Below are positions 1,640-29,046 of a stretch of 35,658 nucleotides of DNA, piece by piece. The stretch is from the NCBI RefSeq assembly GCF_015206885.1, contig NZ_JADEXY010000027.1, forward strand, positions 1 through 35,658. The letters are read 5' to 3'. Within the stretch, counting starts at the first letter, position 1. Each line of letters opens with the position of its first letter. Below the pieces are notes generated by a model. The model did no database searches and was not told the DNA's origin. It was given only the letters and a program-made list of their open reading frames with translations. A program made the position numbers and the translations under genes. This DNA comes from Microcystis aeruginosa LEGE 91341 (GTDB taxonomy: Bacteria; Cyanobacteriota; Cyanobacteriia; Cyanobacteriales; Microcystaceae).

Positions 1640-4600
1640 ATGCCAGCAGCAGTGGAAGAAAAAAGCATGGTTCCCACGGTTTTAGTGGGTATTGGTGGTA
1701 CGGGTAACGAAATTTTATCGCGATTGCGTCGTTTAATAGAGGAAAGTTATGGCAGTTTGAGTAATTTTCCGATTGTCAGTTTTTTGGTGGTTGACACGGA
1801 TAAGGATTATAAAATCAGTAATCCTGAAGCTGCCGGCAGTGCTTTTAAAGATAACGAAAAACACTGGGCCCGGGTGAGTGGAAAACAGGTACAGGAGATG
1901 GTATCTGACATGGATAGATATCCCTGGATTAATAGTTGGTTTCCCCCGGAATTAGAGAGAAATATTACTTCCCTAGAAGCGGGAGCGGGACAAATTCGCG
2001 CCTGCGGTCGTTTTGCTTTATTTTGTAATTATCATGATATCCAAAGAAAATTTCTAGACGCGGTGAGACGGGTAAAGGGACAAGAAAACTTTATGCTTGA
2101 TCGCTATGGAATTAAAGTGGGTAATAGTGCTATTAATGTCTTTACTACGGGGTCTTTAAACGGTGGTACGGGTAGCGGAATGTTAATCGATCTAGGCTAC
2201 TGTATTCGTAATTGGTTACGAGGGGAAAGTAGTCCTTTGAGTACGGCAATTGTTCCCACTCCTGAAGCATTTGCGGGGATTAGTGTCGGCGATCGAGTTT
2301 TGGCTAATGGTTACGCTGCCTTGATGGAATTAAATTACTTTTCTGACTACAGAACCGAATATCATCAACAGTTTAGCAGCGGTTTAGTCGATGAAGTGGT
2401 TAGTAAATTACCTCCCTTTGATTTTACCTATTTAGTGGGGACAAAAAACGGCGAAGGTGATTTTAAACTCGGTCAAATTCGGGAAATGATCGCCCAAAAT
2501 ATTTTCCTAGATATGACCTCTGATTTTGCCCCCCATAAGCGTTCCATTAGAGATAATATTAAGGGTTCTTGGGCGCAAGCTGACCCAGGGGGACGCGGTT
2601 ATCCTAAGCAATTTATGAGTTTTGGGCTATCAACTATTGAAATTCCTATTGCCCAAATTCGTGCCTCCTTATCGGAACGTTTAGCCAAAGATTTAATTAA
2701 TTGGTGGCTGAATGATTCCGTGATTTTACCCGCTCAAATGTTGGAGTTAGTAAGAGGTGATATCCTCAAAAAAATGCGCTTGAGTGAAGGGGAATTAATT
2801 ATGGATTTATGTGCCGACAAGGATCGCTCTTTAATTGCCATAATCTCCCAATGGATTAACGAAACTCGTCAGGAAATCAATCAAGATAATTGGCTATCTT
2901 GTACCAAACAGGGTGTTAACATTTTAGGCAACGAACAGGGAAAAATTCTGCAATTTATTAATGATTATTTAACGCCAAGAGTTGAGGAATTTAAACGCAA
3001 TCATTTACTAGAATTGAGTCCCGATGAACGGCTGCACGGTGATTACCTGAAAAAGATTTATAGTAACCGGGATGAAATTATTCAACGGGGTAAAAAGTCC
3101 CTAGAAATGGAGTTTTATAATATCCTTGAGGATCGAAACCGTGGGGTAAAATTTGCCGAGAGTTTTATTCTTTTAGTACGACAAATCTTCACCGACATAG
3201 CAGAAAAATTCCGTCGCGATCAAGAACAGGTTTGGAGTCAAAACGAAAGTAAACGTCAACGAGAATACGACACAGCCTTGGCAGAAATTAATGATCTGAA
3301 AGATAAACTTCATATCTCGAAAAAAGATAAGATGGAAGAATATTGTGAACAAGCTTTAACGGGATTGGAAGGCTGTTTAATGGCCAATATTCAACGAAAA
3401 ACCAGAGGTGCAGGAGTAGAGGTTATTAATCGTTTACTGGAACATCTTAATCAATTAGAAAGCCGTTTTAATCGCTTTCGTCAGAAATTAATTCAAAGTC
3501 GCGATCTATTTAATCTGCAAGCTAATCAACAGATTGATAGTGCCGATGCTTTGTTAATTAATGGGATTAAATTATTTGACAGACAAGAATTAAATAGTCT
3601 TTATCAAGACTTTATCGAACAATTTGCTTCGGGGATTGCTGGTAACAAAAATGCCTACGATACGGGTATGGATAACCTTTGTTTACCCCTCTCAGAAGAG
3701 ATTTTAAAGCAATCTAGTCCCCTCTGGAAAGAAACGCGCCGCACCGACGAAAATATGCGTTTATTTGACATCACCGAGGTTGCCGATATTCGTCAAGGAG
3801 ATTTTCAAAAAGTTATCCTAAACCAAGCTAATCAACTCCTACAAAATGCTCCCGCTAGTAGTCGCATTCAGCAGGAATTAGCCGCTTGCGATCGCTTGTT
3901 AAAAATTTATAACAACGATACCGATATTATCAATAATCTTCGCATTGCTTACCAAAAATCGCGACCCCTAATTATGCTTAATCCTGCGGTTTTGCGAGGA
4001 AAAGATGCGGGTTTTACACCCCAATTAAATCAAAATGTTGCCCTGATTGGGGGAAGAAACACCAGTAACCCAGCAGCCCAAAAAATTATTCCGAAACTGC
4101 GGGAATTTATTGCCAACGAAGACGATATTAAACCCTTGGGAGACGTGGAAAAATATCGTCTTGTCTTCGTACAGGAAATTGGCGGTTTTTCCCTACGCTG
4201 TCTGGAGGGAATGCGAGATTTGCGGCAATCCTATCAGGACTGGAAAGGAGAATTTATTCTCGCTAAACGCGCCCAACAAATGGGGGAAAATCGCGATTTA
4301 CCCATCCCCGTACATATCCAAAAGGAACCGCCTTTCTGGGATGTTTTTCCCGAAGATCCGAGTATTTATCAATTGGTGGTGACAGCCCGAGCTTTGAAAG
4401 TGCTTTTTCCAGAATTCAATCGAGTCACTAATGAGAAAACAATTCGCTATGAAATTAAAACCGCAACGGGATTAAAAAAAGTCGATATCGCCACCAGTTG
4501 GGAAGATGCGGTACAGGTGTTAGAAGTAAAAGCTTGTCGCGAAGATAAGGAAAAAATTCAAAGTCAGGTGACAGCTAGGTTACAGGCTGCAGCCACTCCA

Positions 4601-4876
4601 GAGAAAAAACAAGCTTTGTATGGGACTTTCATTGAATATTTACAACAACGTTCCGAGGAGTTAACAGGAGGAAAAGACAATACAGAATATAAACGGGAAG
4701 ATGCAATTATTTTGCAGTTAATCCATAACTATAAGTTGGATAGCGGTGGAGAAATTCCTCTTTCTTCGGTGACGGAAGTGGCTAACCCAGCTTTAATTAT
4801 CTGCGGTAATTGTGGACACAAAAACCCGCCCTCGTCTAATTTTTGTTCTAAGTGTGGGGCAAAATTAGTTAAGTAG
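1640..4876 (+). CDS. Tubulin-like domain protein with C-terminal zinc ribbon
   Basis: This 1078-residue protein belongs to the bacterial tubulin/FtsZ-like superfamily (Tubulin_2-type). The N-terminus has a nucleotide-binding loop, VLVGIGGTG (about residues 15-22). The tubulin signature GGTGSG lies at residues 175-180 within FTTGSLNGGTGSGMLIDLG. A long middle part (about 450-750) is charged and helical, suggesting coiled coil. The last 24 residues form a CxxC-x10-CxxC zinc ribbon (Cys1055, 1058, 1069, 1072) like those on cyanobacterial signalling proteins. GTP binding and polymerisation are inferred from the family; the cellular role is unknown. Its start follows the rnz stop by two bases, so it probably depends on the rnz promoter. 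Confidence 0.8.
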   Translation: MPAAVEEKSMVPTVLVGIGGTGNEILSRLRRLIEESYGSLSNFPIVSFLVVDTDKDYKISNPEAAGSAFKDNEKHWARVSGKQVQEMVSDMDRYPWINSWFPPELERNITSLEAGAGQIRACGRFALFCNYHDIQRKFLDAVRRVKGQENFMLDRYGIKVGNSAINVFTTGSLNGGTGSGMLIDLGYCIRNWLRGESSPLSTAIVPTPEAFAGISVGDRVLANGYAALMELNYFSDYRTEYHQQFSSGLVDEVVSKLPPFDFTYLVGTKNGEGDFKLGQIREMIAQNIFLDMTSDFAPHKRSIRDNIKGSWAQADPGGRGYPKQFMSFGLSTIEIPIAQIRASLSERLAKDLINWWLNDSVILPAQMLELVRGDILKKMRLSEGELIMDLCADKDRSLIAIISQWINETRQEINQDNWLSCTKQGVNILGNEQGKILQFINDYLTPRVEEFKRNHLLELSPDERLHGDYLKKIYSNRDEIIQRGKKSLEMEFYNILEDRNRGVKFAESFILLVRQIFTDIAEKFRRDQEQVWSQNESKRQREYDTALAEINDLKDKLHISKKDKMEEYCEQALTGLEGCLMANIQRKTRGAGVEVINRLLEHLNQLESRFNRFRQKLIQSRDLFNLQANQQIDSADALLINGIKLFDRQELNSLYQDFIEQFASGIAGNKNAYDTGMDNLCLPLSEEILKQSSPLWKETRRTDENMRLFDITEVADIRQGDFQKVILNQANQLLQNAPASSRIQQELAACDRLLKIYNNDTDIINNLRIAYQKSRPLIMLNPAVLRGKDAGFTPQLNQNVALIGGRNTSNPAAQKIIPKLREFIANEDDIKPLGDVEKYRLVFVQEIGGFSLRCLEGMRDLRQSYQDWKGEFILAKRAQQMGENRDLPIPVHIQKEPPFWDVFPEDPSIYQLVVTARALKVLFPEFNRVTNEKTIRYEIKTATGLKKVDIATSWEDAVQVLEVKACREDKEKIQSQVTARLQAAATPEKKQALYGTFIEYLQQRSEELTGGKDNTEYKREDAIILQLIHNYKLDSGGEIPLSSVTEVANPALIICGNCGHKNPPSSNFCSKCGAKLVK

Positions 4877-5122: not shown

Positions 5123-6850
5123 CTAGGCAGCCGCGCTGTAATAAGGCGAAGGCAGACTTGGATAAACTCGCAGGATGTGACGGAAGACTTCTTCCGTTTT
5201 TTCTGCCACTTCTTCTTCCGTGTAGAGATCGACGGGTAAACCAGTATGATCGCTGTATAGAAAGTTGTGAATAGTAGTTTTAACCTCCGCCCGACTGGAT
5301 TCTTTATCTAGCCAACGATCGATCTTTAGTTTCTCTTGTTTTAGGGTTTCCAAAAGCTGCGTGGCGATCTGTTTAATTTTTTCAATGTCTTGCGGTGATA
5401 GATTCTCTTTGGTTAAAAGGTCGAACAGGGCCAGGGATTCCTCGTCTAATCCCTCGCTAACCGCCCGTTGGGACTCTTGATCGAGTTCCTGAATAAATTC
5501 TAATAAGGCCTCGAAGGTCTGTTCGATCGCCACCCGATCCTTCTCGAAATTATAATCAGCGATGATCTGCTCGTAATGTTCTTGAAAGTTCGTCCGTTGC
5601 AGATTCTGCTCGATCATTGTTCGGAGACGGTTTTCGATGGCGTTTTTGAGAGTTTGGACGGTGGTATTCTTGCGATCGCTATTGGCGAATTCCTGTTTCA
5701 GACGCTCGAAGTTGATTTTACTGATGTTGTACAGTGGGGTATCATCGGCCCTCGCTTCGGTGGTTACATCGATCGCCCCGTCGATTACCGATCGCATTTC
5801 CAAGAGAATTTCCCCGATGTCTATTTTCTCCCGATCACCTTGAACGCATTTATAGATCAGTTTAATCGTGTCGTGAGCCGGACGGTAGTGATTAACCGAT
5901 GGCTGATTAAGACAGGCCTTAAAAAGATGGAAGACCTCTTGGGAGAGGAGTTGAAAATTTTGTCGGGCCTGATCACTTCGATTGATCGCTTCCTTCGCGT
6001 CGTTAATGGCTTTATTGAAGGCAAAACTAGGTATTTTATATTCGAGGAGTGCGTCTAGGGATGCGTTACTTTCCCCCAAAAATTCTTTAACTGCCTCGAT
6101 CGATCGGGCCAATTCATCCAGTAAATTTTCTTGCGGTTTCGTGGGGTCGAGACTAAGATGGTCTTCCCTGCGTCCCTGATCGGAAATTTGGGCGAGATCG
6201 GCGAGAGCTTGGCGGAGATTTTTGAGAATTCCGCAGTAATCCACGATTAAACCGTTAGTTTTGCCCTCGTTAACCCGGTTAGCACGAGCGATCGCTTGCA
6301 TGAGCGTATGAGCTTTTAGGGGTTTATCGAGGTAGAGGGTGGAGAGGGAGGGAACATCGAAACCAGTCAACCACATAGCGCAGACGATGGCGATCCGAAA
6401 GGGGTGATCGGCTTGTTTAAAGGCATTTTCCGGGCTGATTCTTTTACCGTCCGCCAGTTCAAAGCCGTTTTTGATTACACTGCGATGGATAGTAATATCT
6501 AACCCGTGTTTCTGGAATTTGTCGATCTCTCCCTGTTCCTCGCTGACGATCACGGCCGTTAGGGTTGCTTCCATCCATTGAATCTGACGCTGACGATAGT
6601 TTTCCTCTTGGTCATCGGTAATTTTTTTGAGGTCTTTTTTCAGTTGTTGGATTTTTTCGCTCCAGTAACGATCGATCAGGTTATGCAGCTTGACACAGGT
6701 GAGCTTGTCGATACAAATCACCATAGCTTTGCCTGTTTCCCAAGCGGTGCTGTAATGTTCAACGAAATCACGGGCCAGCGCCTCCAACCGCTGCGGGGCC
6801 GTCAGGATGTAGTAATCCCTTCTTAATTCCGTTCTATTAAACCTACTCAA
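5123..6850 (-). CDS. hsdR: HsdR, C-terminal part (type I restriction subunit, interrupted)
   Basis: This is the 3' part of the type I restriction motor subunit. The open frame starts at a TTG, but its first three codons belong to the transposon edge; authentic HsdR sequence begins at FNRTELRRDYYILTAPQRLEALA. It contains the second RecA-like helicase lobe (AMVICIDKLTCVKLHNLI, then CAMWLTGFDVPSL), motif VI (LMQAIARANRV) and the helical C-terminal region that contacts the modification subunits. It lacks the nuclease domain, Walker A and DEAH box, which lie beyond the insertion at 8685-10194. Alone it cannot translocate or cleave DNA. Joining it to the upstream part at the GG junctions gives one uninterrupted 1076-residue frame, so decay has not gone beyond the insertion. 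Confidence 0.93.
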   Translation of the reverse strand: MSRFNRTELRRDYYILTAPQRLEALARDFVEHYSTAWETGKAMVICIDKLTCVKLHNLIDRYWSEKIQQLKKDLKKITDDQEENYRQRQIQWMEATLTAVIVSEEQGEIDKFQKHGLDITIHRSVIKNGFELADGKRISPENAFKQADHPFRIAIVCAMWLTGFDVPSLSTLYLDKPLKAHTLMQAIARANRVNEGKTNGLIVDYCGILKNLRQALADLAQISDQGRREDHLSLDPTKPQENLLDELARSIEAVKEFLGESNASLDALLEYKIPSFAFNKAINDAKEAINRSDQARQNFQLLSQEVFHLFKACLNQPSVNHYRPAHDTIKLIYKCVQGDREKIDIGEILLEMRSVIDGAIDVTTEARADDTPLYNISKINFERLKQEFANSDRKNTTVQTLKNAIENRLRTMIEQNLQRTNFQEHYEQIIADYNFEKDRVAIEQTFEALLEFIQELDQESQRAVSEGLDEESLALFDLLTKENLSPQDIEKIKQIATQLLETLKQEKLKIDRWLDKESSRAEVKTTIHNFLYSDHTGLPVDLYTEEEVAEKTEEVFRHILRVYPSLPSPYYSAAA

Positions 6851-6852
6851 AT

Positions 6853-8025
6853 CTACTCATGAGCAAATTTGACGTTAACTTCCTGCTTCACTGTAGTAGT
6901 GTCGGCACTATCTACTCCACAAGCTGACACGGTGGAACTCACCGCCAAAGAAGCTAGATTTAGACTAGCGTTCAAGTCTCGACCGCAAACTACATGGCAT
7001 TGTTCACACTCAAAAACTCTTTCAGTTAAAGATAGAGACTCTTTCTTGTACCCACAATTGGAACAGGTTTTACTGCTAGGAAACCACCTATCGGCTATGA
7101 TTAATTCCGAACCATACAACTGAGTTTTATAATCAAGTTGTCTTCGGAACTCGTAAAAACCCATATCCTGAACGGCTTTAGCTAATTTGTGATTAGCCAT
7201 CATCCCAGACACATTTAAATCCTCAATTACTATCTTGCCGTGGTTCTTGGCTAAATAAGTGGTGAGTTTATGTAACGTATCTTTACGGATATTAGCTATT
7301 TTAAAATGAAGTTTAGCTATTTGCCGTTGGGCTTTGTTCCAATTATTTGAACCTTTTACCTTATGTCGGTTCAAGTATTGAAGTCTGGCTAATTGTTTTT
7401 CGTATTTACGATAACTTTTAGAGCCTTCAAACGTCTCCCCTGTCGATAAAGTAGCTAAAGATTTAATTCCCAGATCACAACCAACTACATCATGAGTTTT
7501 ATTGGTTGTTTGCTGTTCAACTTCCATCTTAAAACTAATAAACCACCTATTAGCTTTTTTACTAAAAGTGACAGATTTTGGCTGGTATCCATAGGGTAGC
7601 GGCTCGTAGGTTTTTAACCAACCAATCACAGGAACTTTTATCTTTTGATGAGCAACTTTAATGCTCCCATCTAAAGTGAAACTATCCTGTTTACCTTTCT
7701 TCTTGAAATTTGGTGGTTTAGCTATCTTCTTGAAGCATCTTTTCCAAGCATCGGATAAAGCTCTTAACGCCCATTGGGGAGCGCATTTAGACACTTGATA
7801 ATACCAATCATGCTCTGATTTTACCAATGCTACCAACCATTTGTGAAGGTCAATAGCCGTAGGAAACTTGATTTTTTCATCAGGGTTAGCTTGATTATGG
7901 TCTAAAATTTGCTTGGTTAAAGCCAAACCCCAATTCCAAGCATGACGTGCGGTTCCTGCGTGTTGGGCTAATAATGAGCGTTGTTGATTATTTAGTTTTA
8001 ACTCAGTCTTGAATCCTAGTAGCAA
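6853..8025 (-). CDS. tnpB: TnpB, RNA-guided nuclease of IS607 element
   Basis: The 390-residue product is of the TnpB/OrfB family, ancestral to Cas12. TnpB is a guide-RNA-directed DNA nuclease that promotes retention of its transposon. The RuvC acidic residues are all present: Asp184 in VGCDLGIK, Glu268 in IVIEDLNV and Asp350 in GRDLNAS. A zinc finger is formed by Cys321, Cys324, Cys340 and Cys343. The usual DRDxNA motif reads GRDLNA, a change outside the catalytic Asp. The TTG start overlaps the end of the recombinase gene by 23 bases. The stop lies only about ten bases from the element end, so any guide (omega) RNA scaffold would overlap the tnpB 3' end and its guide would be flanking hsdR sequence. 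Confidence 0.92.
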   Translation of the reverse strand: MLLGFKTELKLNNQQRSLLAQHAGTARHAWNWGLALTKQILDHNQANPDEKIKFPTAIDLHKWLVALVKSEHDWYYQVSKCAPQWALRALSDAWKRCFKKIAKPPNFKKKGKQDSFTLDGSIKVAHQKIKVPVIGWLKTYEPLPYGYQPKSVTFSKKANRWFISFKMEVEQQTTNKTHDVVGCDLGIKSLATLSTGETFEGSKSYRKYEKQLARLQYLNRHKVKGSNNWNKAQRQIAKLHFKIANIRKDTLHKLTTYLAKNHGKIVIEDLNVSGMMANHKLAKAVQDMGFYEFRRQLDYKTQLYGSELIIADRWFPSSKTCSNCGYKKESLSLTERVFECEQCHVVCGRDLNASLNLASLAVSSTVSACGVDSADTTTVKQEVNVKFAHE

Positions 8026-8611
8026 CGTCTCTTAGCTCCTCTACGATTTTTCTATTTTTATGGCTTCTAGAGCCATACAATCTAGCGGAAAATACCGTAA
8101 TAATCTCTAAGACATCTTCTGCTAAATCCTCCTCAAATGTACTGTCTTCAGTTCGATTAATAATGACAACTTCAGTCCCGAATTGTTCACACAGACTAAA
8201 GATTAATTCACTACCAAATCTAAGTAATCTATCCTTATGAGTTAAGACTAATCTCTCTACTTTACTATCAACAATCAACCGAATTAATCGCTTTAATCCT
8301 TTTTTGTTGTAGTTAAGTCCTGAACCTAGGTCGTCTATAATTTCAACTTGCCAACCGTTTTGAGCGCAAAACAGTTCGACAACTTCTTTTTGACGTTCTA
8401 AATCCTTCTTTTGGTCATGACTAGAAACACGGCAATAGCCAACAGTATAAGAGAGATTCTCTTTTAAACCAAGCAACTGAGAAATTGTATAACGACGATG
8501 CCCATTAGCAGTCCGTTCTGGAATTAGTTTACCTTCAGACTCCCAACGCCTTAACGTCGATACGCTTACACCTTTCAATTTAGCGGCTTCCGATATGGTT
8601 AACTTACTCAT
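8003..8611 (-). CDS. tnpA: IS607 serine recombinase (TnpA)
   Basis: This is the transposase of the element. It has an N-terminal MerR-like winged helix (LTISEAAKLKGVSVSTLRRW) that binds element ends. The resolvase/invertase catalytic domain follows, with nucleophile serine in YCRVSSHDQ at about residue 63, and the supporting DLERQ, DLGSGLNY, HKDRLLRFG and VFSARLYGSRS motifs. The product is about 202 residues from ATG at 8611. An upstream in-frame TTG at 8629 is less likely, because the stretch before the ATG is itself a promoter -10 box. The gene appears intact and translationally overlaps tnpB. Confidence 0.92.
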   Translation of the reverse strand: MSKLTISEAAKLKGVSVSTLRRWESEGKLIPERTANGHRRYTISQLLGLKENLSYTVGYCRVSSHDQKKDLERQKEVVELFCAQNGWQVEIIDDLGSGLNYNKKGLKRLIRLIVDSKVERLVLTHKDRLLRFGSELIFSLCEQFGTEVVIINRTEDSTFEEDLAEDVLEIITVFSARLYGSRSHKNRKIVEELRDVATRIQD

Positions 8612-8617
8612 AGAACG

Positions 8618-8626
8618 ATTATAGCA
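8618..8626 (-). promoter_or_regulatory. Extended -10 promoter of tnpA
   Basis: TGCTATAAT, a consensus extended -10, reads toward tnpA only seven bases before its ATG. No good -35 is present. The transcript would begin at or next to the start codon, giving a leaderless or near-leaderless mRNA and favouring the ATG at 8611 as the start. Confidence 0.5.
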
Positions 8627-8652
8627 CAAGTCATGAGTAATTTTGGATAATA

Positions 8653-10194
8653 TTAGTTAGGTTTTTGGCTTCTGTATTTAACCCTTTCTAAACGGTCTTC
8701 TATCTCGACATTTTCGATCTCTAACTCTTCGATTTTGGCGGCGATCTGTTCGTTGAGGTCGTTGACGGCGATCGAGAGTTTATCACCCCTTGCATCATAG
8801 TAGAGGGGAACGGTAGCTTTATCCTCGACCGCTCTCTGGAAGTCGTAGGTGGAGACATAATCCCCGAAATAGCGTTTAGTGATCTCGTCGTTGCTGACTA
8901 GAGGGGTGCCGGTAAAACCGATAAAACCAGCGCCCGGAAGTGCAGCCCGGAGGTTGCTGGCCAGGGTTCCGTACTGGGTTCGGTGGGCTTCGTCGCTGAT
9001 AATGATGATATCGTTTCGGGAGTTGTAGGGTTGGTCGGGATTGACGGTTTGGTTGAATTTCTGGATGAGGGTGAAAATATAGGCTTTATGCTCTCCCAGA
9101 AGACTCTGTAACTGTTCGTTACTGGAAGCTCGGCAGAGTTCTTGCTCGTTATTGGTCAATCCGGAACCGGCAAAGGTATAGTAGATCTGTTCGTCTAGAT
9201 CTGCGCGATCGGTACAGATAACGAAGGTATAGTTTGCGCCTAGTTTACGGCGAATTTTGCGGGTGAAAAAAACCATAGAGTAGCTTTTTCCGGAGCCTTG
9301 GGTATGCCAGAAAACCCCAAGTTTGTTATCTTTTATCCCACCCTCCCGCCATCTTTTCACAGAATCGATCGCTTGGTTAACCCCCAGAAACTGGTGATTC
9401 CGGGCGATAATCTTGCAGGTTTTGCCAGTGGAGTTATCGAAAAGGACATAATTTTCCAACAGATCGATAAAGTTATTTTTATCGCAGACTCCTTTTAGCA
9501 TGGTTTCCATATCGACAATGCCGGGGTCACTCTCGGCCAGGCGTTTCCATGGGTGAAAGTGTTCGTATTTGCCGCAGAAACTACCTATTTTCGCGTCTAT
9601 GCCATTAACTAAAATCGCAAAGGCGTTATAGGCGAATAGATGGGGGATAGTACGGATATACTTCAATAAATTCTCGTCGTAGGCCGCTTTTAGGTCGCGG
9701 TTGAGGTTTTTCGCTTCTAGGAAGAGTAGGGGAATGCCGTTAACAAAACCTACCAAATCCGTGCGACAGAGGTAGATTTCCCCCTGTATCCACAGTTCTC
9801 GAACCGCTAGAAAATGGTTATTGCTGGGTTGGTCAAAATCAAGGATTTTTAGGGTTTGTCTAATTAGCTCTCCTTTGGCGTTGCGGTAGCTCACCTGTAC
9901 TCCATCGAGAAGGAGTTGATGTTTCTCTTGATTGGTGACGAGAAGGGTTTGACTAGAGTTGATTTCTTCGATTTGGAGAATGGCGGAATTATAGGCTTCT
10001 TCGGGAAGGTTGGGGTTAAATTCTCGTAATTTCTGTTTTAGGTAGCGTTTGAGGATAACTTCTTTCTGATTTTGCCGTCCGAGCAGGCTGTTTTCACCGT
10101 AATCCTCTTGATTATAAGCATAGACACTCTGCCAACCAAGTTGATCTCGCAGACAGTTGGCGGTGAGTTCTTGTACTTTATCCTCGGTGGTCAT
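8653..10194 (-). CDS. hsdR: HsdR, N-terminal part (type I restriction subunit, interrupted)
   Basis: The 513-residue N-terminal portion of HsdR carries the PD-(D/E)xK nuclease core (Asp146, then Glu160-Ala-Lys162 in LLFLEAK). It also has Walker A TQGSGKS at 298-304, the DEAH box at 401-404 (IIISDEAHRTQYG) and motif III FTGTPL near 428-432. HsdR sequence ends at Arg504; the last nine codons (VKYRSQKPN) are read from the IS607 element before a stop. Helicase motifs V and VI are on the separated fragment at 5123-6850, so ATP-driven translocation and therefore restriction should fail. The gene follows hsdS by 85 bases and was presumably the last cistron of the operon. Confidence 0.94.
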   Translation of the reverse strand: MTTEDKVQELTANCLRDQLGWQSVYAYNQEDYGENSLLGRQNQKEVILKRYLKQKLREFNPNLPEEAYNSAILQIEEINSSQTLLVTNQEKHQLLLDGVQVSYRNAKGELIRQTLKILDFDQPSNNHFLAVRELWIQGEIYLCRTDLVGFVNGIPLLFLEAKNLNRDLKAAYDENLLKYIRTIPHLFAYNAFAILVNGIDAKIGSFCGKYEHFHPWKRLAESDPGIVDMETMLKGVCDKNNFIDLLENYVLFDNSTGKTCKIIARNHQFLGVNQAIDSVKRWREGGIKDNKLGVFWHTQGSGKSYSMVFFTRKIRRKLGANYTFVICTDRADLDEQIYYTFAGSGLTNNEQELCRASSNEQLQSLLGEHKAYIFTLIQKFNQTVNPDQPYNSRNDIIIISDEAHRTQYGTLASNLRAALPGAGFIGFTGTPLVSNDEITKRYFGDYVSTYDFQRAVEDKATVPLYYDARGDKLSIAVNDLNEQIAAKIEELEIENVEIEDRLERVKYRSQKPN

Positions 10195-10279: not shown

Positions 10280-11440
10280 CTACACCTCGATCTCTCCATT
10301 CATAAGTTTCGGAAGTAGTATGTCACGCGCTTGTTTTAGTTTTTGATTTTGCTTTTGAAGAACTTCTTTTTGCTCGAATATAGAATCTAAAGTTTCTGTC
10401 GCTAATTCTTGTAATTCGATTGAAGGTACTAATATAGAAATTTCTCTTAGTGCTGACTGTCGGATTCCGAAGACTGTAGTTCCCGTTTCTCTTGAATGAA
10501 TTTCTGCTTGAGTTTTAGGAGTTAAAAGAGTACAAAATAACATTGCTGGTTTAATAACATCTACATTGGCTCTAATAGCATAAAGTCTTTGACTAAGACA
10601 GAATTTTTGCTCGGAAGTTAAATAGTAAAGTTCACCTAATGGAGCTTCAGAGGTCATTAAAATATCATATTTCTGTAATTCTGTTTTCATCCACTTTTCA
10701 TACAAGCTCTCATTGACAAATTTACATTTGTCTAAGTTGATTAATTGATTATTCTTTACATTAAGTGCCGAAAGTGCTGGAATTCCAGAATTAGACCAAT
10801 CTCCACCAAGTTTTTTAGGTGTTTTGCCACGATAATCAATTATATCTGATATGACTTCCTCTAATTTTAAATATTTCCACCCTTCAGGAATACCATCGAT
10901 AATCGGGGTGTGTTCGTGTCCAGGGAAGCGTAAACGGACGAACCATTCCTTGTAAAGTAAGCGGGCTGAACGTTCTAATAACTCGATGCGGCGGCGATTA
11001 TTTTCGATTAAATCATCATATTTGGAGAGGATATCGGCGATTTTTTCTTCTTGAGATTTATCGAAAGCCAAAACTTTAATATTAGCAATGTGATTTCTAT
11101 TTAGTGTAGGAACGCCAGTACCGAAATTAAAACGAGAAAAATCAATATTTTTTAATACATAATAAATAAATCTTGGGTTATGTTCTTTAAAATCTTTTAC
11201 CCATAGTGTAGTATTAAGTGGCCAAAAATCACCAGCTACATATTGACCGCCACCTATACTACCACTACGACCAATTACAACTCCCGGCCCCTTAACTTTG
11301 GCGATGTTGTGAGAACCGATTATACCTGTTGAAGCCACAACAGGTATATTGCCTATAACTCGCTGTATCTCTGGAAGATCAAAACCTCTTTGTAGTATGA
11401 TTAAATTATTTAAAGCTATATATTTTTTGTTTAATTTCAT
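10280..11440 (-). CDS. hsdS: HsdS, type I specificity subunit
   Basis: HsdS determines the bipartite DNA target of the HsdM/HsdS methylase and the full restriction complex. The 386-residue product shows the expected two-fold plan. Target recognition domain 1 spans about 1-125. A conserved helical spacer spans about 128-172 (EEKIADILSKYDDLIENNRR, then LLYKEWFVRLRFPG). Recognition domain 2 spans about 185-335, and a second helical region near 340-386 ends DILLPKLMNGEIEV. It appears intact. Recognition domains vary by strain, so the target cannot be read from sequence. The 300-base gap to the DUF559 gene contains repeat debris, so its original coupling to hsdM has been disturbed. Confidence 0.93.
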   Translation of the reverse strand: MKLNKKYIALNNLIILQRGFDLPEIQRVIGNIPVVASTGIIGSHNIAKVKGPGVVIGRSGSIGGGQYVAGDFWPLNTTLWVKDFKEHNPRFIYYVLKNIDFSRFNFGTGVPTLNRNHIANIKVLAFDKSQEEKIADILSKYDDLIENNRRRIELLERSARLLYKEWFVRLRFPGHEHTPIIDGIPEGWKYLKLEEVISDIIDYRGKTPKKLGGDWSNSGIPALSALNVKNNQLINLDKCKFVNESLYEKWMKTELQKYDILMTSEAPLGELYYLTSEQKFCLSQRLYAIRANVDVIKPAMLFCTLLTPKTQAEIHSRETGTTVFGIRQSALREISILVPSIELQELATETLDSIFEQKEVLQKQNQKLKQARDILLPKLMNGEIEV

Positions 11441-11741: not shown

Positions 11742-12161
11742 CTAAGGAGGATCATCAACCTCCGTACAGACAGGAAGCGAAGAAATAAACCCCGATATTT
11801 TCTCACAAACCGCCTCGAAATCGTATTTAACCTCATCATTGGTGAAACGGATCACCGTTAATCCGTATCCCTCCAAAACCTTCGTTCTTCTAGCATCATA
11901 AGCCATTGCCTCCGGAGTAAGATGAACCTCCCCATCCACCTCGATCACTAATTTCAACTTCGGACAATAGAAATCAACGATAAAATGATCGATCGGTCGC
12001 TGTCGCCACATTTTTAAGGGAAATTGCCGGAGAAAAGCCCATAACTTTTTTTCTGTCGGTGTGGGATTTTTTCGCATTTCCTTGGCTCTAGGGACTAAAT
12101 CGGGATTGTAGGGTAGAAAATAAACACCGTATTTTAATTTAGACACGATCGCTATCTCCAT
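11742..12161 (-). CDS. DUF559 endonuclease-like protein (Vsr fold)
   Basis: The 139-residue protein of the DUF559 family resembles very-short-patch-repair endonucleases. A helix PTPTEKKLWAFLR (33-45) is followed by the family hallmark RPIDHFIVDFYCPKLKLVIEVDG, giving a PD-(D/E)xK-like core with Asp63, Glu74 and Asp76, all present. The ATG at 12161 is preceded by AAGGAG at good spacing. The gene lies between hsdM and hsdS, 35 bases after hsdM, inside a segment flanked by duplicated hsdM-tail sequence. DUF559 genes are common accessory passengers in cyanobacteria. A mismatch-repair or nicking role next to the methylase is only inferred. The last residues run into low-complexity repeat-adjacent DNA. 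Confidence 0.85.
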   Translation of the reverse strand: MEIAIVSKLKYGVYFLPYNPDLVPRAKEMRKNPTPTEKKLWAFLRQFPLKMWRQRPIDHFIVDFYCPKLKLVIEVDGEVHLTPEAMAYDARRTKVLEGYGLTVIRFTNDEVKYDFEAVCEKISGFISSLPVCTEVDDPP

Positions 12162-12196: not shown

Positions 12197-14254
12197 TTAA
12201 ATTCCTAACCCTTCAAAATTCTTCGCAATTTCATCAGCTAAACGAATCGCCTCGAAGTTGAGATCATTTAACTCCAGATGAATTTCGCGTAACGTTTCCT
12301 CGAAATCGAAACCCTCATCTTCCTCCTCTGGGGAAACGCCGACATAGCGTCCGGGGGTTAAACTCCAATCATTCGCCTGTAACTCCTCGCGATCGACCAC
12401 TTTAACCAACCCTTCCACATCCCGCAGCTTGGCATCGGGGAACCTTTCTAATAACCAGTGAGCGTGACGGTAGAAACTACGAACCGATTTAAGCTGTTCG
12501 ATCGCATTCTGACGGTTTGTATCGGCTTCTTTGCGTAAGATATTGAGTTCGCGGGAATTCCACCACAGTTTACTATCTCTTGCTCCCAGATCCTTCTCGG
12601 CACGCTCGATCGCTCGACCTAATAATTTATTCACCAGATCCGCCTGTTTGCCCAGATCCCGGCTAAATTCGCCGTATTCGTGATAACGACGGACAGCCTC
12701 GTGTAAAGTATCTAAATCATCAGCATTATAGGAAATCGGAGGGAAACTGGCGTATTTATCCATGTCATCCTTAAAAAGCTCAGATGCTGTTCGGAGTTCT
12801 AACCATGTCCCGTCTTTTTCATCGATGAGATTATAAAATTTCTCTAGTGCCTCCGTTAACCTGTCCAGATGCTCGCGATAGTTTTGTAAAAGAGCGATCG
12901 ATCCCTGATACTCTCGATCGATACTCTGGCAATAACCGACAACCAAATCGATAAAACGCTTGGATTCGCTCCGATAGAGCCAGACGATCGAGAGAATATT
13001 CTGTAACTGCTCTGGGCTAAAATCGTTGATCGTCCGGTTTACTTTCCGGTAAATATTGCGGGCATCGATCATTAATATCTTATCTTGAAGCTCGGCGGGT
13101 TTTCCTCGATTGAGAAACCACAACTCGCAGGGTACGGAGCGGGTATAAAAAAAGTTAGAGCGGATGGCGATCATTATGTCCACCGTTCCTGTCTCGATTA
13201 ACTTCTGTCTTACCTTGCCTTCGTCTCTCCCGGCGCTGGAAGCTTGGGAAGACATAACAAAACCGGCTTTTCCTCGATCATTGAGATAGCTGTAGAAGTA
13301 ACTGATCCATAGATAGTTACCGTTGGAAACTTTGTTATTTTTATTGACTCCTGGCAATCCGAAGGGTAAGCGCTCATCACCATCTACCTTACTGTCCACC
13401 TCGTCCACGTTAAAGGGAGGATTGGCCATTACATAATCCACTTTCCCAGCTAATGCCAGCGGATCCTCGTAGTAGGTGATCGCTTTTTGGATATCCCCTT
13501 CTAAACCGTGAACTGCGAGATTCATCTTGGCTAAACGAATCGTGGTCGGATTCTTCTCTAACCCTTTAAAAGTTAACATCTGGGGGTTGATGCGCTGTCT
13601 CTCAACGAAATGTGCGCTCTGGACAAACATTCCCCCCGAACCACAGGCAGGATCGAAAACCAATCCGTGATCGGGTTCTAAAACATTGGCGATCAAAGAT
13701 ACTAGAGAAACGGGAGTAAAAAACTCTCCGTTATCGTGAGCTTTGAGATTAGCGAATTGAGTTAGGAAATATTCGTAAATTCGCCCGAAAATATCCCCAT
13801 CGGCTTTTTTTAACTCTTCCGGGTTTAAAATCCGTAGTAAATTCCCTAATACCACGTTATCTAGCTCTTGGTACTCCGTTTTCGGTAAAATACCCCCTAA
13901 AGGTGGATAATCCCCCTCGATCGATAGCATTGCTTCCATTAAGGAGGTCGATCGATTGACGCTATCGGGGAGCGCCACCAGAAAATCGAACTGAGCTTTT
14001 TCTTGGAGATAGATCGCTCCTTTGCACAAGAAATCTTCTTTGATTAAGGAGCGTGTTTTACCCTGTCGCTTCGGTAAATCCGCCTCTACCTCCCTCTTAA
14101 CCTTGAGAAAACGACTATAGGCATGACGGAGGAAAATCAAGCCCATAACGGGCAGAAAATACTCGTTACTGGCATAGTTAGAATTAGCTCGCAGAGTATC
14201 GGCCGCTTTCCAGAGCTTTTTTTCGATCGCTTCGATGTTGTCCAGTTGGGCCAT
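12197..14254 (-). CDS. hsdM: HsdM, type I DNA methyltransferase subunit
   Basis: The adenine-N6 methyltransferase subunit transfers methyl groups from S-adenosylmethionine to the site chosen by HsdS. In 685 residues it has the N-terminal helical HsdM domain (MAQLDNIEAIEKKLWKAADTL onward), the SAM-binding motif DPACGSGGMF at 201-210 and the catalytic NPPF at 278-281. The C-terminal part is long, helical and charged (about 430-685). It appears intact and is the first gene of the minus-strand operon, starting 291 bases from the divergent DHH gene. With hsdR broken but hsdM and hsdS intact, methylation without restriction is the expected phenotype. Confidence 0.94.
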   Translation of the reverse strand: MAQLDNIEAIEKKLWKAADTLRANSNYASNEYFLPVMGLIFLRHAYSRFLKVKREVEADLPKRQGKTRSLIKEDFLCKGAIYLQEKAQFDFLVALPDSVNRSTSLMEAMLSIEGDYPPLGGILPKTEYQELDNVVLGNLLRILNPEELKKADGDIFGRIYEYFLTQFANLKAHDNGEFFTPVSLVSLIANVLEPDHGLVFDPACGSGGMFVQSAHFVERQRINPQMLTFKGLEKNPTTIRLAKMNLAVHGLEGDIQKAITYYEDPLALAGKVDYVMANPPFNVDEVDSKVDGDERLPFGLPGVNKNNKVSNGNYLWISYFYSYLNDRGKAGFVMSSQASSAGRDEGKVRQKLIETGTVDIMIAIRSNFFYTRSVPCELWFLNRGKPAELQDKILMIDARNIYRKVNRTINDFSPEQLQNILSIVWLYRSESKRFIDLVVGYCQSIDREYQGSIALLQNYREHLDRLTEALEKFYNLIDEKDGTWLELRTASELFKDDMDKYASFPPISYNADDLDTLHEAVRRYHEYGEFSRDLGKQADLVNKLLGRAIERAEKDLGARDSKLWWNSRELNILRKEADTNRQNAIEQLKSVRSFYRHAHWLLERFPDAKLRDVEGLVKVVDREELQANDWSLTPGRYVGVSPEEEDEGFDFEETLREIHLELNDLNFEAIRLADEIAKNFEGLGI

Positions 14255-19320: not shown

Positions 19321-22300
19321 ATGAGTAATCTGATAGACTATAATACGATTCAACAAACTATCGTGAGCAATTCTACTCAGCGATTAGTGTCCACAAGTAA
19401 CAATAAATATTATTGGTGGAATGATTATAATCAAAGTTATAATTTTTTAGTTGATACCAGTTTTATCGTAAATTCTCAGGGTATTAACTATTCTATTAAA
19501 CAAGTTGATTCTGACAATGCAGGAAACTTTTATTTTCTGACATCAACTGGTAGCGGCGGTTCTCAGCAATACTACTTATGGAATTGGAATTCTTCATCTC
19601 CAAATTTAGAGGGTGCTATTTGGATTCCTTATCCAGCAAATCCTAGCTATCACAATTTTATTGACTTTACGGCAACAAGTAATGAATTATGGGTAATCTA
19701 CAACGGCGGAATTGTTCAGCAATATTTATGGAATTCAACCCAAAATACATATAATCTAGGGTTTTATGGCATTTTAGGCAATTCGGGATCCGCTAAAACG
19801 ATAACCACAGGAAAAGAAGATGGCTCAGTTTGGGCAACCGATATTCAGGGGAATCTCTACAGTTGGAATGGGACAAGCTTTAATCTATTTAATGGGGGTA
19901 ATAATCCCGCTTTCCAACAAATAGTTTCTCTCAACAGTCAAACTCTGTTAGGTTTAGACAATAGTGGCAATATCTATGCTTGGTCAAGTGGTGCTAATGC
20001 TTTTATTGAGTTAGATAATGTCATTCCCAATTTACCCGTTTTTAAGCAAATCCAAATTGATGAAACAGGGATTTTATACGGAATAACTAACCTAAGTGTT
20101 CCTTATCAAGTGGGCAATCTTAGCTCAATTTTAGGGTTAAACAACTCCAGTGGCCAACCCTTTGGTCTGACGACTGTTACAGATGGTAATGGTGTCACCC
20201 ATGCAGTTTGGAATCAAAACGGACAAATCTATTACGGTTATCAACCTTCTGGGACTAATGGTCAATATGTTGGGGTGACACCGCTTAATGGTGGTATTGG
20301 AAGCCAAAGTCAAGGAAGCACCGCCAATTTAACCTTAACTAAGACACAAAATGGAGGAGTTGTTGCGTCTTGGATAGGGGGAAGTGGCAATAATGCGGAA
20401 GTTTATACTTCTTCCCTAAGTTCTTCTATTTATGGGGGTTATCAATGGAGTTCTCCCACACAGTTGACTGACGATGAATTAGAAGACACAAATTTAAACG
20501 TTGTGGCTTTAAGTAATAACAATCTTTTAGTAACGACTCGAAAAAATAACCAAGCTGTTAGTCAACTGGTTGATATTAGTCAACTTCCTGTAACAGCCAC
20601 TGACTCAAATCAATTAACCTTTAAACCCAAAGGAACAGAATTTACCTACTCAATTGTTCCGGGGGTTTTGGACAGAGCATCTGGGATTATTACTCTCCCT
20701 AATTATGTTGCTATTACTGTCGGGGTCGGGACGGGTAATTTACCTAAAGCATTCGAGTCTATTAAAAAGAAATTTGGGAAATATTTTAAGGGTTTTAATA
20801 TCAGTGCAGATATTGATGCTACCACTTGGGATTTTAGTTCTCAGTCTCCCCCAGCCTATAATAGTTTAAAACTTAGTGCAACCCTCGGACTGGGAAAGGT
20901 ATTCTCAGAGTATGTTGATTTAAATATTTTATTTTTTGCACAAGGGGCTGGGGCATGGAAAACAGTAACTAGCTATCCTTCTAGTGTTAGAGCTAAAGCG
21001 GGGGGGGGATTTGATCTTGAGGTAAATGCCCTTGCAATGGTTCTAAATAGCTTGTTTCCCGGTACAGGTGAGGCCTTGGAAGTACTTAGTAAAAAAGGTG
21101 TGTTTAGCATTAATGCGGGGCCAGTAGTAGGGCTTGATCTTAGCTTTACTACAAGTATTCAATTTGACGAGAATACAAAGAACATTCAACCCAGTGATTA
21201 CTTTTTTAAACTGGTTGATAAAGATGGCGCTCCACCAACCGATGACACCCCTCAGGCGGAGCTCTTTTGGCACTTAGATACAACTAAATTTTTTAGCTTT
21301 TTAGGTGACGCCTTTTCATCCGGGGATGAAAACTTTAGTTTGGAAATCAAAACCGGTCTTTATGTTAAGGCCAGTGTATTAAAAGATTTTATTAAGGTGG
21401 ACATTAAAGGGGTTCAGACCGAAGACTTTGATACCCAGGGTTTTTCGGGGGCGAATTATACCAACAAAATTAAAGTTACAGTTACTCCGCTTGTCTTCTC
21501 AGTTTCCTATGTTAACTATATCCGAATTAATGATAAAGTCTCTGGTTTAACTGGAGAAAGCGAAATTTTTCAAAATCACCGAGGATTACCTGCCAGTGTT
21601 TCATTAGAACCTAATTCCACAATTTATCTAACTCAACCCGGTTACTCTACATTATTAGGAGAAGATGTCAACGATTTAATTGATAGTAGTGATATATCCT
21701 ACATCATTGCTCCTGATGGCACAACAGTTTACGGCACATTTACAGGAAGTGTAGATGACAATTCAGCTAATCTTTCCTATTTATACTTTTTGAATGGAAC
21801 ATTAGGCAGTAATGGTATTAACTGGAATGCCAACAGTTTACAGGCTATTTCCAATACAGCCGGAGCAAATCAAACCCCAAATATTGCCCTAGATACAAAT
21901 GGCAATGTTGTAATTGCTTGGCAATATGAATCAATCAATAATCCCACCGTACAGCAGATTGCTACTACCCCACCGGGACAAGTTTATGTCGTATATGGAC
22001 AAACAGGAAATAACCCAGTAAACTTAGGAAACTTCCCAGAAAATCCCAACCCATCTGGGTTCTATTGGACATTAGACAATGAATACTTTGCCAGTTTTGG
22101 GCAAGCCGTGACCGCTTTAGGAGATGTTAATGGCGGTGGTAAAAATGATTTTGCCATGACTGCACCGGATCTTGATGATGAACAAGGCGGCGTTTATGTG
22201 GTATTTGCAGAAGACTATAACCAAGTTAATGACCTCAATAATTTGGGTAGTAATGGACTGCTTTTGACGGGACAAGCGTTGAGTGAATTGGGTTACAGTA

Positions 22301-25300
22301 TTGCCAATGCGGGAGATGTCAATAGCGATGGTAAAAGTGATTTAATAATTGGTGCGCCTGGTTTAAATAACAATCAAGGAGGTGCTTATTTACTCTATGG
22401 GGGAACCTTATTTGAGACATCTCAAAGCCTCACAAATATTGATACTTTACTCAGCAATAATCCAGCTTACGGACAACAAATTACTAACCCCAATGGACAA
22501 GCAGGAGATCGTTTTGGTTCTGTAGTAACAGGGGGTTACGACTTTAATGGAGATAGTCAAGCAGACTACGCCATCCTGTCACCCAATGCCAATCAAGAAG
22601 CAGGAGAAACTACCTTAATTCTCTCCCAGTCTATTGCTAACGAGGTATTTACTTTAAGCGTCAACCAAAGCGGTAATTTAGTCCTATTCAATCAAACCAA
22701 GAATACTCAAGTTTGGAGTACCAACACCTCACCTCCAGAGCCTCAATATGCCAGTTATTATCAAGCTACCATGCAATCAAATGGTAACTTTGTTTTATCT
22801 GAATGGGCCGGTGAAGCTCAACTCTCTTACTGGTCAACTAATACAGCAGGAAATCCGGGTGCTTATCTTGCGTTGGGTGAAGATGGGGGTCTGTATATAC
22901 GCAATCAACAAGGGAATAATATTTACACTTTCCATCAAGGTACAAATCCCAATACTTCAAGAGTTAGTCGCCTCAACGAAGGAAATAGCATTGTTTCTAA
23001 TAACTCCAACTCCAATTTAACCTACCAAAGTTACCTCGGTGGGACAATAACCATAACTAACAGTACCTCAGCGGTTAATAACAATACTCTGTTAGATCTA
23101 ACTAGCATCGCTCTAATTCCAGACGTTAATCAGGATGGCAAGGCAGATTTACTGATTGGTGGAACAGGAGCTGCAGTTATCCTATTTGGCGCGAATTTAT
23201 CCACTCAAACCTTAGATTTAGGAACCATAAACCCGGGTCAAGGCTTCGTTATTTTTGATGATTTAGACAACCCTGCACCGTTACAAGTAAGTAGTGCTGG
23301 TGATGTTAACGGCGACGGTATTAACGATGTAATTGTTGGCTATCCTGCTACCCAAGATGCTAATGGAAATTATCTTGCAGGAAATAGTTACATTATTTTT
23401 GGTAGTTCAAATCTTTCCTCAAACCAAAATAACAGTATCGGTTTCTCCGGAATCAATGGAACAAATGGCTTTACTATTACCGGTGCTGGAACAGAAGTCA
23501 GCGGTGCTGGCGACTTAAACGGTGATGGTGTAGGAGATTTACTAATTGGTGAACCCAATGGAGGTAATAATCAAGCCGGTGTAAGTTATGTCATCTACGG
23601 AGGAAAGAGTAACAATATTGGCAGCGTCGCTAATATTAATGTTAGTAACATCGGCACAACTGTTCAGGGTTATGTAATTGGTCAAGGAGGAGCAAATCAA
23701 CTCAGCGGGTCTTCTGTTAGTGCAGTAGGAGACTTAAATAATGATGGTAAAGCGGATTTATTAATAGGAGCGCCGAATACAGTTTCTAGTGATGCTCTCA
23801 ATCAATTACAACAAACCATCACCTCCAACTATGTCATCGGACAAGTAAGTAATGGAACCTTAAATACCCATAATTCAACCCCCACAGCCATCCCTTGGTT
23901 ACAACCCGGTCAATCTGTACAAAGTTTAACCTCAACTCCCTACGGTGTTCTCGCTATATGGACAACTAGCACAGGTTCAGGAGAAACGGCTCAAACTAAC
24001 TTATCTGTCGCCTTTTGGGTCCCTAGTGGAACGACAGGAAGTTGGAAAAACTATCAATCTAGCGTTACTACCCTTTCTGGCTCTAATTTGAGTTTTTCTA
24101 GCATCAATGTTAATGCTAGTAATAATAGTATTACTTTAGGTTGGGTTGTGCTTGATTCCACAACCGGAACCTCCAGTCTTGGCCAAAGTATTTATAACGG
24201 AAATAATTGGAATACGGCTAATTCTATCCAAACAGATTCTAATCCTACGCCACCGGAACAGATTGATAATATTATTAGTAATCCCACCACCGGTAGCACC
24301 AGTAATAGTGTCTTCTCAGTAAGTCATAAAACCGTCAAAGAAACCGTCAAAGAAAATGAAGGAAAAGTGACTTTTACCATCACTCGAGAAGGTGACATCA
24401 ATACCAGCAAAACCCTAAATTATCGCACAGTAGATATTAGCGCCACCGCCGGAGCCGATTACGAACATAAAGCTGGAACCATCACCTTTACTCCAGGCGA
24501 AATCAGCAAAACCATTGAGGTGAAGATTTTTGACGATAACTTATTAGAACATCTCAAGGAGAAATTTAAGTTAATCCTCGAAGATGGTCAACAAACCACT
24601 TTAACCGCTTACGCCACTTTACAGGATACCAACCAAACGATTAACTTATTGGCTATAGATAGTGGTTTTTCCATGATTGGTCCATTCAATGATCAATTAG
24701 GTCAAGCTTTAGGTAGTGCGGGGAATGTTAATAAGGATACTAATGGCAATAATAATAATGCCCCTCTTGATGATTTCTGGATTTCCGCCCCCGGAGACAA
24801 TAACAGTCAAGGCAGCATCTACCTAATTTTTGGCTCTCCTTCCGTACAAGTATCAGACCAAGGACTTAACTTAGATAGTCCCCAGTCAGGTCAAAACGTT
24901 GTCAAAATTACAGGGGATGCAACGACTACTATCACCTCCCCCCAAAGTGGCAATAGTCTTAGTTCTTGGTCAGGTTCTTCTAAGAGTTGGTATGCGATCG
25001 CCGCTTCTAACGCAACCAATCAAGGGGGAACGAACGATAGTAAGATTTATATTTTCGATAATTCAGCGATTACTCAAACCAGTGGGGCGATCGCCCTTAA
25101 TTCCCTAACCACATCACCCCTAACAGGTAACAGTAGTGACGGTTTTGGAGAAACAAGTCTGTTAGCAGACTTAAATGGTGATGGAACACCAGAGTTAATC
25201 GTCGGTTCTCCGTTAGGTAATCAAGTTAAGGTCTATCAACTATCAGGGTCTGGTAAAAATATTACTACCAGTCTGATTGCTACTATTAATGCTCCCAGTG

Positions 25301-28300: not shown

Positions 28301-29046
28301 AAGATACCGGTTTCAACTTCCAAATTCCCACTAATACCTTTGTTGATGTTGATCTAAACGATACCCTGACTTATTCAGCTACCCTCAGTAATGGTGATGC
28401 TTTACCCAGTTGGTTAAACTTTAACTCAACAACCCGAACTTTCAGTGGAACTCCTGCTTACAAAGATGTTGGTAATCTCAGTCTAAAAGTAACCGCAACT
28501 GATAAACCGGGAGCAAGTGTTAGTACAAACTTCACCCTACAAGTGTTCCACCCAGTATTAGTTCCCTCTAGCGGTAGCCTGATTAAAGGAACCCCAATAA
28601 ATGATCGCATCGATGCTTTGGGTAAATCCGGTACTTACCGCTTAGAAAGTGGTGCTGGTGATGACTTGTTAATCGGTTCCAACCAACGAGATGTTCTCAA
28701 CGGTGGAAGTGGTAATGACAGTCTCTATGGTGAGGGAAATATAGATAAACTTTATGGAGAAGAAGGAGATGATCTACTTGATGGTGGTTTAGGTTCAGAT
28801 TTTCTCTATGGCGGTGCGGGTGCTGATAGCTTCGTTCTCAAGTCAGGAAATGGTAGCGATCGCATTCTTGATTTCAACTCTGCTCAAGGCGATAAATTGG
28901 CTCTCAGTGGAATCAACTTCGGACAGTTAAGCTTTAACAGCAACCAAATTCTTTTGGGAACTGAAGTCTTAGCTTATGTTACTGACAATCTCGGTAATTC
29001 CCTCACGGGATTGAACAATCATCCTGAATGGTTTGTCTCTCTCTAA
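19321..29046 (+). CDS. Giant FG-GAP/lectin/Calx-beta/RTX surface or secreted protein
   Basis: This 3241-residue protein has no N-terminal signal peptide. Residues 1-400 are Trp/Gly-rich repeats resembling a beta-propeller ([13 protein letters not shown]). About 20 FG-GAP/VCBS-type Ca-binding units (GDVNGDGxxDxxIGAP) follow, some seven before and thirteen after the middle. A bulb-type lectin-like segment lies at about 1105-1206 ([18 protein letters not shown]). A Calx-beta domain is at 1661-1767, a degenerate RTX patch at about 2792-2847, an Ig-like/cadherin-like domain at 2979-3079 and canonical GGxGxDxLYG repeats at 3089-3174 before a short C-terminal tail. RTX ends with no signal peptide imply type I secretion and Ca-dependent folding outside the cell. 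Adhesion or carbohydrate binding is inferred. No ABC exporter is nearby. Confidence 0.85.

Follow-up and report, generated by a model that had tools for sequence, protein, structure and literature searches.

An IS607-family element interrupts hsdR in Microcystis aeruginosa LEGE 91341

We analysed a stretch of 35,658 nucleotides (the window) from the draft genome of the bloom-forming cyanobacterium Microcystis aeruginosa LEGE 91341 (assembly GCF_015206885.1, contig NZ_JADEXY010000027.1, our contig C237), an assembly of 4.49 Mb in 280 contigs with a completeness of 99.97%, which is G000 in our genome labels. The minus strand of the window carries, in this order, hsdM, a small DUF559 gene and hsdS, followed by hsdR, which an insertion sequence (IS) divides into two pieces. 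This IS is a complete IS607-family element with its tnpA and tnpB genes, and it interrupts the type I restriction gene hsdR without duplication of the target (Table 1). The two hsdR open reading frames (ORFs), as called, run from 8653 to 10194 (N-terminal part) and from 5123 to 6850 (C-terminal part).

The hsdR gene was compared among 12 genomes of the genus, and the element and its predicted guide were searched for in 50 genomes of the family. Uninterrupted hsdR homologues were found in G003, G004 and G011. When the window flanks were joined at a single GG, the resulting 3219 bp aligned without gaps to these three genes, with identities of 99.3%, 98.0% and 97.5%, respectively, and gave a frame of 1072 amino acids with no internal stop and the native junction DRLER-ELRRDYY. 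The empty site of the homologues reads AGAAAGGGAATTAAG on the hsdR strand. A preliminary description made from the letters of the window had proposed an IS607-type element splitting hsdR at a GG without target duplication and no further lesion in either half of the gene; the uninterrupted homologues and the family score of TnpA (below) bear out the first point, the empty sites the second, and the gapless, stop-free alignment the third.

The extent of the element had to be corrected. The preliminary description had placed it at 6842..8684, with its right end at the GG of 6842-6843, and this boundary was ruled out: the empty sites lack the 12 bases TTTAATAGAACG, earlier assigned to hsdR, whereas other copies of the element have them, and both lines of evidence give 6829-8683. 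The proposed junction DRLER-FNRT-ELRRDYY, with a product of 1076 residues, was contradicted by the homologues, so that the alignment to uninterrupted hsdR genes refuted the exact junction while the insertion itself stands. Scarless removal would still leave an open frame, as had been suggested, with a product of 1072 and not 1076 amino acids. Because both joins keep the frame, the error was invisible without relatives; the lesson for genome reading is that an element boundary is to be set by empty sites and other copies and not by the first GG at which the frame happens to be preserved.

The other copies agree with the corrected ends. All five full-length copies with at least 96% identity (the window copy and four at other sites) spanned positions 1-1855 of the query from GG to GG, and each of five partial copies at this same level of identity reached one of the same two ends. 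The right end was CGG at the new boundary, 13 bases past the GG proposed earlier, in 22 of 23 different rows (L058 is degraded).

The insertion interrupts codon 504, which lies between the first motor domain (267-494) and the match to domain 3 (641-702) in the numbering of the intact G003 protein. Lacking the later domains, the truncated HsdR should neither translocate nor restrict. Among the four alleles compared, the changes private to the G000 hsdR were four synonymous and two amino-acid changes with no stop or frameshift, these six being too few to date the insertion, to compute a ratio of nonsynonymous to synonymous rates (dN/dS) or to separate selection from recency. Because of the gapless high identity to relatives and the few private changes, the insertion looks recent when measured against these genomes. 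When named genomes were scanned with the C-terminal part of HsdR, two loci among 80 candidate stretches were confirmed, both on contigs of M. aeruginosa metagenome-assembled genomes (97% and 99% identity), which added no sites; neither the empty nor the filled hsdR junction had an exact match in viral contigs.

Table 1. Coordinates in the window of the interrupted hsdR gene, the IS607-family element and the other type I genes
Feature	Position	Strand	Description and evidence
hsdR 3' part	5123..6828	-	Pfam T1R_D3-like (domain 3) and T1RH-like_C (HindI-like C-terminus); intact homologues
Predicted 20-nt guide	6809..6828	-	hsdR sequence just outside the right end; position by analogy with ISXfa1 (PMC10711439)
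IS607-family element	6829..8683	-	GG to GG, 1855 bp, 1853 bp net; empty sites and other copies
GG crossover dinucleotide, right end	6829..6830	-	preceded by C, hence CGG
Predicted guide-RNA (omega RNA or right-end RNA, reRNA) scaffold	6829..6945	-	right end, overlapping the 3' end of tnpB; covariation in 19 aligned right ends
tnpB	6853..8025	-	RNA-guided nuclease; NCBIfam guided_TnpB; alignment with solved TnpB and TnpB-like nucleases
tnpA	8003..8611	-	IS607 serine transposase; MerR-type helix-turn-helix (HTH) and resolvase domain, YCRVSS motif; ORF 8003-8629 starts with TTG at 8629, first ATG at 8611
GG crossover dinucleotide, left end	8682..8683	-	with G at 8684 forms GGG, the putative transposon-adjacent motif (TAM); empty sites and left-end rows
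hsdR 5' part	8684..10194	-	503 codons and two bases of codon 504, completed as AGG by the GG of the element; Pfam HSDR_N nuclease domain and SWI2_SNF2 first motor domain; gapless alignment to intact hsdR of G003, G004 and G011
hsdS	10280..11440	-	open frame; Pfam Methylase_S, two specificity-domain stretches
DUF559 gene between hsdS and hsdM	11742..12161	-	Pfam; copies in G003, G004 and G001 at 98.6-100%
hsdM methyltransferase	12197..14254	-	open frame; Pfam N6_Mtase and HsdM_N

TnpA, TnpB and other copies of the element

The tnpA frame of the window element is open, and its product scored 214 bits against a cut-off of 110 for the NCBIfam IS607 transposase model (NF033518). The Pfam MerR (11-47) and Resolvase (63-192) matches place the HTH N-terminal to the serine-recombinase domain, and TnpA resembles the solved catalytic domains of the ISC1926 TnpA (PDB match, 2.7e-28) and the IS1535 TnpA. 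TnpB, also encoded by an open frame, scored above the general NCBIfam guided_TnpB cut-off (310 bits against 100), contains the Pfam Cas12f1-like_TNB zinc ribbon and keeps the RuvC catalytic triad D184-E268-D350 in line with its solved relatives. By eye, neither end of the element is an inverted copy of the other, which fits the IS607 family, whose members insert at GG, duplicate no target and lack terminal inverted repeats (PMC6188088).

In relatives, copies of this mobile IS occupy unrelated sites. With six candidates scored per genome, matches were found in 33 of the 50 genomes, many of them partial or distant, and G000 had a single match in the whole genome. At three further insertion sites, the flank matches in insertion-free genomes overlapped by 2-3 bp; the letters of the empty site were seen for L109, and the L103 string was looked for and not found. 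A related IS607 insertion occupies one and the same site in G011 (L005/L046) and G010 (L039/L042), two species-level genomes; both flanks agree, and in G010 the two element ends are on separate contigs, each at the contig end. This shared site points to stable residence of the element.

A few observations concern the element family at large. Solo right ends of about 300 bp with the guide-RNA region were seen in L037 (G008:C214) and L038 (G001:C1:5113000-5119000), with flanks matching at 97-98%. Four left ends (L011, L012, L021 and L084) matched over 51-64 bases at 77-78% identity, and that of L021 is followed, by eye, by an apparently different TnpB-like frame and possibly represents a related element family. 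Two further ideas were set aside. An IStron-like group I intron spliced at the RNA level was ruled out by an Rfam search of the whole window at the gathering score, which gave only tRNA, and hsdR as a hotspot for the element was rejected since, among the matches listed, with no more than 25 candidates scored in each genome, none from another genome reached further than about 10 bases into hsdR.

Predicted guide RNA and target site

The last 120 bases of the element give a candidate consensus fold. In an alignment of 19 of the 23 right ends (L058, L061, L062 and L076 were omitted as degraded, distant or too short), this fold comprised 33 pairs, 11 of them with changes in both partners; the observed values were matched by none of 500 shuffles, related sequences being able to exceed such shuffles without structure, and slid versions of the fold gave 0-4 pairs changed on both sides. 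The guide predicted to follow this scaffold opens with the hsdR bases AATTAAGAAGGGATTAC.

GGG followed by the first 17 guide bases was found with no mismatch in G001, G003, G004 and G011, and all 20 bases were seen in the letters of these four; the other 45 of the 50 genomes had no match to this site at up to two mismatches. In the occupied G000 allele, the guide bases are preceded by CGG and not by GGG. The left end of the element was GGG in 20 of 21 rows; nine of these 21 have an alignment that starts at base 9-13, with the end placed by ungapped extension, and four of the 21 belong to a related element of 77-78% identity. A G precedes GG at a frequency of 27% in the window, which gives a chance of about 3e-12 for 20 out of 20, a rough figure because the rows are not fully independent. 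We infer a TAM-like GGG at the left flank that is absent at the right end. In ISXfa1, an IS607 element, the TAM test of its TnpB showed depletion of a GGG motif, and the nucleotide flanking the right end is part of the RNA scaffold (PMC10711439). Because the excised hsdR allele would present GGG and a perfect guide match and the occupied allele presents CGG, the former would be a predicted target of TnpB and the latter would not.

The type I locus in relatives and neighbouring genes

HsdR, HsdM and HsdS are present together by their Pfam domains, and the gene order is retained in relatives. HsdM is 98-99% identical, without gaps, over 685 amino acids in G003, G004 and G011. HsdM and HsdS scored under their NCBIfam cut-offs (93 bits against 243 for hsdM), and the intact G003 HsdR scored above that of TIGR00348 (489.5 against 284.6). 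With hsdR broken and the hsdM and hsdS frames open, the expected state of the host is restriction off and methylation possible, and the methylation without restriction of the preliminary description remains plausible on the same ground.

Seven of the 12 genomes matched the N-terminal part of HsdR (E of 1e-20 or better), two of them (G002 and G005) with distant homologues at 35%. The hsdR gene in question is carried by five genomes, intact in G003, G004 and G011, with the IS607 element in G000 and in pieces in G001; the other seven, counting G002 and G005, are without it. The insertion in hsdR was found in G000 only, and the empty site with GGG and guide in G001, G003, G004 and G011. In G001, hsdR lies in eight pieces at two places about 457 kb apart (L035, G001:C1:443000-461500; L036, 911000-925000), all nine frames tested between or beside these pieces match DDE-type transposase families, and one break is about 20 bases from the site of the IS607 element in the window. 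This pattern fits a tolerated loss of restriction and not switching. The hsdM match of G001 is also split in two.

The specificity gene behaves differently from its neighbours. The best segments of hsdS (window 10280-11440; L032, L033 and L034) were 40-45% identical to those of G003, G004 and G011, with one further segment at 53%, where hsdM and hsdR are at about 97-99%. This is consistent with a probable exchange of specificity at hsdS of the type I locus and, the identity of HsdS between strains being low, the target motif therefore probably differs from strain to strain. In G000, G001, G003 and G004, hsdM and hsdS have the DUF559 gene between them; it was unmatched in the stretch of G011 that was searched.

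Elsewhere in the window, a frame of 3241 amino acids (19321-29046) with FG-GAP repeats, a Calx-beta domain, an Ig-like domain and RTX calcium-binding repeats is probably a large surface or secreted protein. A frame of 1078 amino acids (1640-4876), with a Tubulin_2 (tubulin-like) domain and a C-terminal zinc ribbon, adjoins a gene of the metallo-beta-lactamase fold.

Proposed explanation and alternatives

The locus is very probably explained by a fairly recent insertion of a complete IS607 element into hsdR, with restriction lost, methylation possible and TnpB expected to keep the insertion in place. The element would have entered a GGG in hsdR through TnpA-catalysed exchange at GG, without duplication of the target, and would have abolished restriction by breaking HsdR just past its first motor domain, leaving HsdM and HsdS able to methylate. 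TnpB would use the right-end RNA, whose guide would be the adjoining hsdR sequence. Removal of the element by TnpA would create an empty site with GGG and a perfect guide target, which TnpB would be predicted to cut, and the cut allele would be repaired from a chromosome copy still holding the element, so that the insertion would be restored. It would thus be retained, and reversion would be rare unless TnpB failed or all copies lost the element. Retention of transposons through TnpB is known from earlier work, which also reports that TnpB works as a gene drive on plasmids (PMC11870625); in a polyploid cyanobacterium, empty copies are therefore predicted to be re-filled. Full-length excision of an IStron went undetected in the tests of PMC4227781, which is a mild point against easy excision.

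Several observations weigh against this explanation or parts of it. Polyploidy is described for cyanobacteria in general (PMC9360974) and is presumed for LEGE 91341 itself. TnpB scored below the stricter, exception-level NCBIfam IS607_TnpB cut-off (268.6 bits against 350), and we therefore name it only as the TnpB carried by an IS607 element. Folded as a single sequence, the right end with its guide was unexceptional, with a z of -1.23 and 25 of 200 shuffles folding equally well, and the right-end RNA had no Rfam match in the gathering-score search of the window mentioned above. One left-end row (L010, among those set by ungapped extension) departs from GGG, other IS607 TnpBs were measured with the TAM AGGAG or GAGGG (PMC11061315), and the IS607 TnpA itself favours (G)GG (PMC6188088), so that the G ahead of GG may partly reflect a preference of TnpA and is no proof of a TAM. 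Many relatives of the element may no longer be mobile: in nine full-length copies, tnpB was free of stops in eight and tnpA was free of stops and frameshifts in five.

The preliminary description had raised the possibility of a reversible off-switch. In its regulated form, TnpA would excise the element in some cells and restore full-length HsdR, as in the excision elements in the nif genes of Anabaena. The ends and the frame permit exact restoration, the excised frame has no internal stop, and tnpA, hsdM and hsdS are open; we nevertheless consider such a switch very unlikely. No genome searched holds both states of the site (one match per genome, in assemblies that may hide a minority state), the element is a mobile IS found at unrelated sites, the related insertion is common to G010 and G011, and the same hsdR was lost through other insertions in G001. 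Because the insertion is limited to G000 among the 12 genomes, the fixation across relatives that a nif-like element would show is not seen, and the predicted targeting by TnpB, with its guide and GGG motif, would work against the empty state by re-filling excised copies. The insertion could instead be the first step of gene decay, in which the host can do without restriction, tolerates any IS in hsdR and later loses this copy or breaks it further. This course, which is compatible with the explanation preferred here, is possible at somewhat below even chances: the fragmented hsdR of G001 beside DDE-type transposases and the seven genomes without this gene speak for it, whereas the G000 hsdR is undecayed so far, its few private changes being too few to tell selection from recency.

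A further alternative would give the complex of TnpB and its RNA a TldR-like role, in which it was co-opted to silence or protect hsdR; TldR proteins are nuclease-dead. The predicted guide does lie in hsdR, but a guide in the own flank is expected of any TnpB insertion, the catalytic triad is present and no sign of domestication was seen, and we give this role almost no credence. An artefactual join of unrelated contigs could be suspected in a draft of 280 contigs; it is extremely improbable, as the single element match in G000 leaves no repeat to mislead the assembler and the junctions are exact from GG to GG, the same as at other sites. A stronger form of the retention by TnpB described above would be an RNA-guided lock that makes the loss of restriction self-reinforcing, in which, at each departure of the element, the empty hsdR copy would be cut and overwritten across the many chromosome copies and incoming intact alleles from neighbour strains, having the same GGG and guide, would be destroyed or converted. 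We regard this as unlikely; if it were true, the lineage would be open to foreign DNA yet methylated until TnpB failed, and restriction would then be back in one step.

The preferred explanation describes an IS607 insertion that is ordinary and well preserved, in a gene for defence; of greater interest is the prediction that the element opposes its own removal. Because TnpB is predicted to cut the cleanly emptied site, hsdR should be hard to switch back on, the predicted target of the nuclease being the very site that clean removal leaves.

Comparison with known systems

IS607 elements with TnpB are a common kind of mobile element, and their insertion in hsdR is mostly ordinary. The excerpted text of a study on the mobile elements of Microcystis PCC 7806 (PMC11448079) does not mention IS607. 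Among titles and beginnings of abstracts in the open-licence literature, we found no report of an IS607 element within hsdR, and the combination of Microcystis, insertion sequence, restriction-modification and hsdR was unmatched in that literature. Since close relatives carry the exact empty alleles, the locus is a natural test of whether an IS607 TnpB keeps an insertion in place in a chromosomal gene when the bacterium is polyploid, and of whether a selfish nuclease can maintain a state with restriction off and methylation on.

The ISAsp22 element of Anabaena sp. 90 is an IS607 element of 1866 bp (PMC3542288). Like the window element, IS607, ISXfa1, ISC1926 and the IS607 elements of Anabaena sp. 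90 have tnpA and tnpB, GG ends and no target duplication; ISXfa1 shares with it the GGG at the target, and the short repeats near the right end are alike, by eye, in IS607-family transposons. The likeness is one of family features, and the window element differs in that its target happens to be hsdR.

The genus Microcystis is not known to form heterocysts. The nifH, nifD and hupL elements of Anabaena likewise bear a recombinase and split a gene that exact excision restores, but those of Anabaena 90 measure 5.9-80 kb and are removed in heterocyst development (PMC3542288), whereas the element studied here is a mobile IS of 1.85 kb. At the SpnIV tvr locus, a recombinase also acts at a type I restriction-modification locus; there, the shuffling of hsdS depends on a dedicated recombinase and direct repeats, while in the window an IS breaks hsdR (PMC6265443). 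The TnpB-driven retention and plasmid gene drive of PMC11870625 were described for IS200/605, a Clostridium botulinum IS607 being used in the transposon trap. The present case differs from them as a prediction from sequence that concerns a chromosomal gene, and resembles them in the guide taken from the flank of the insertion, in the predicted cutting of the empty site and in the multi-copy setting.

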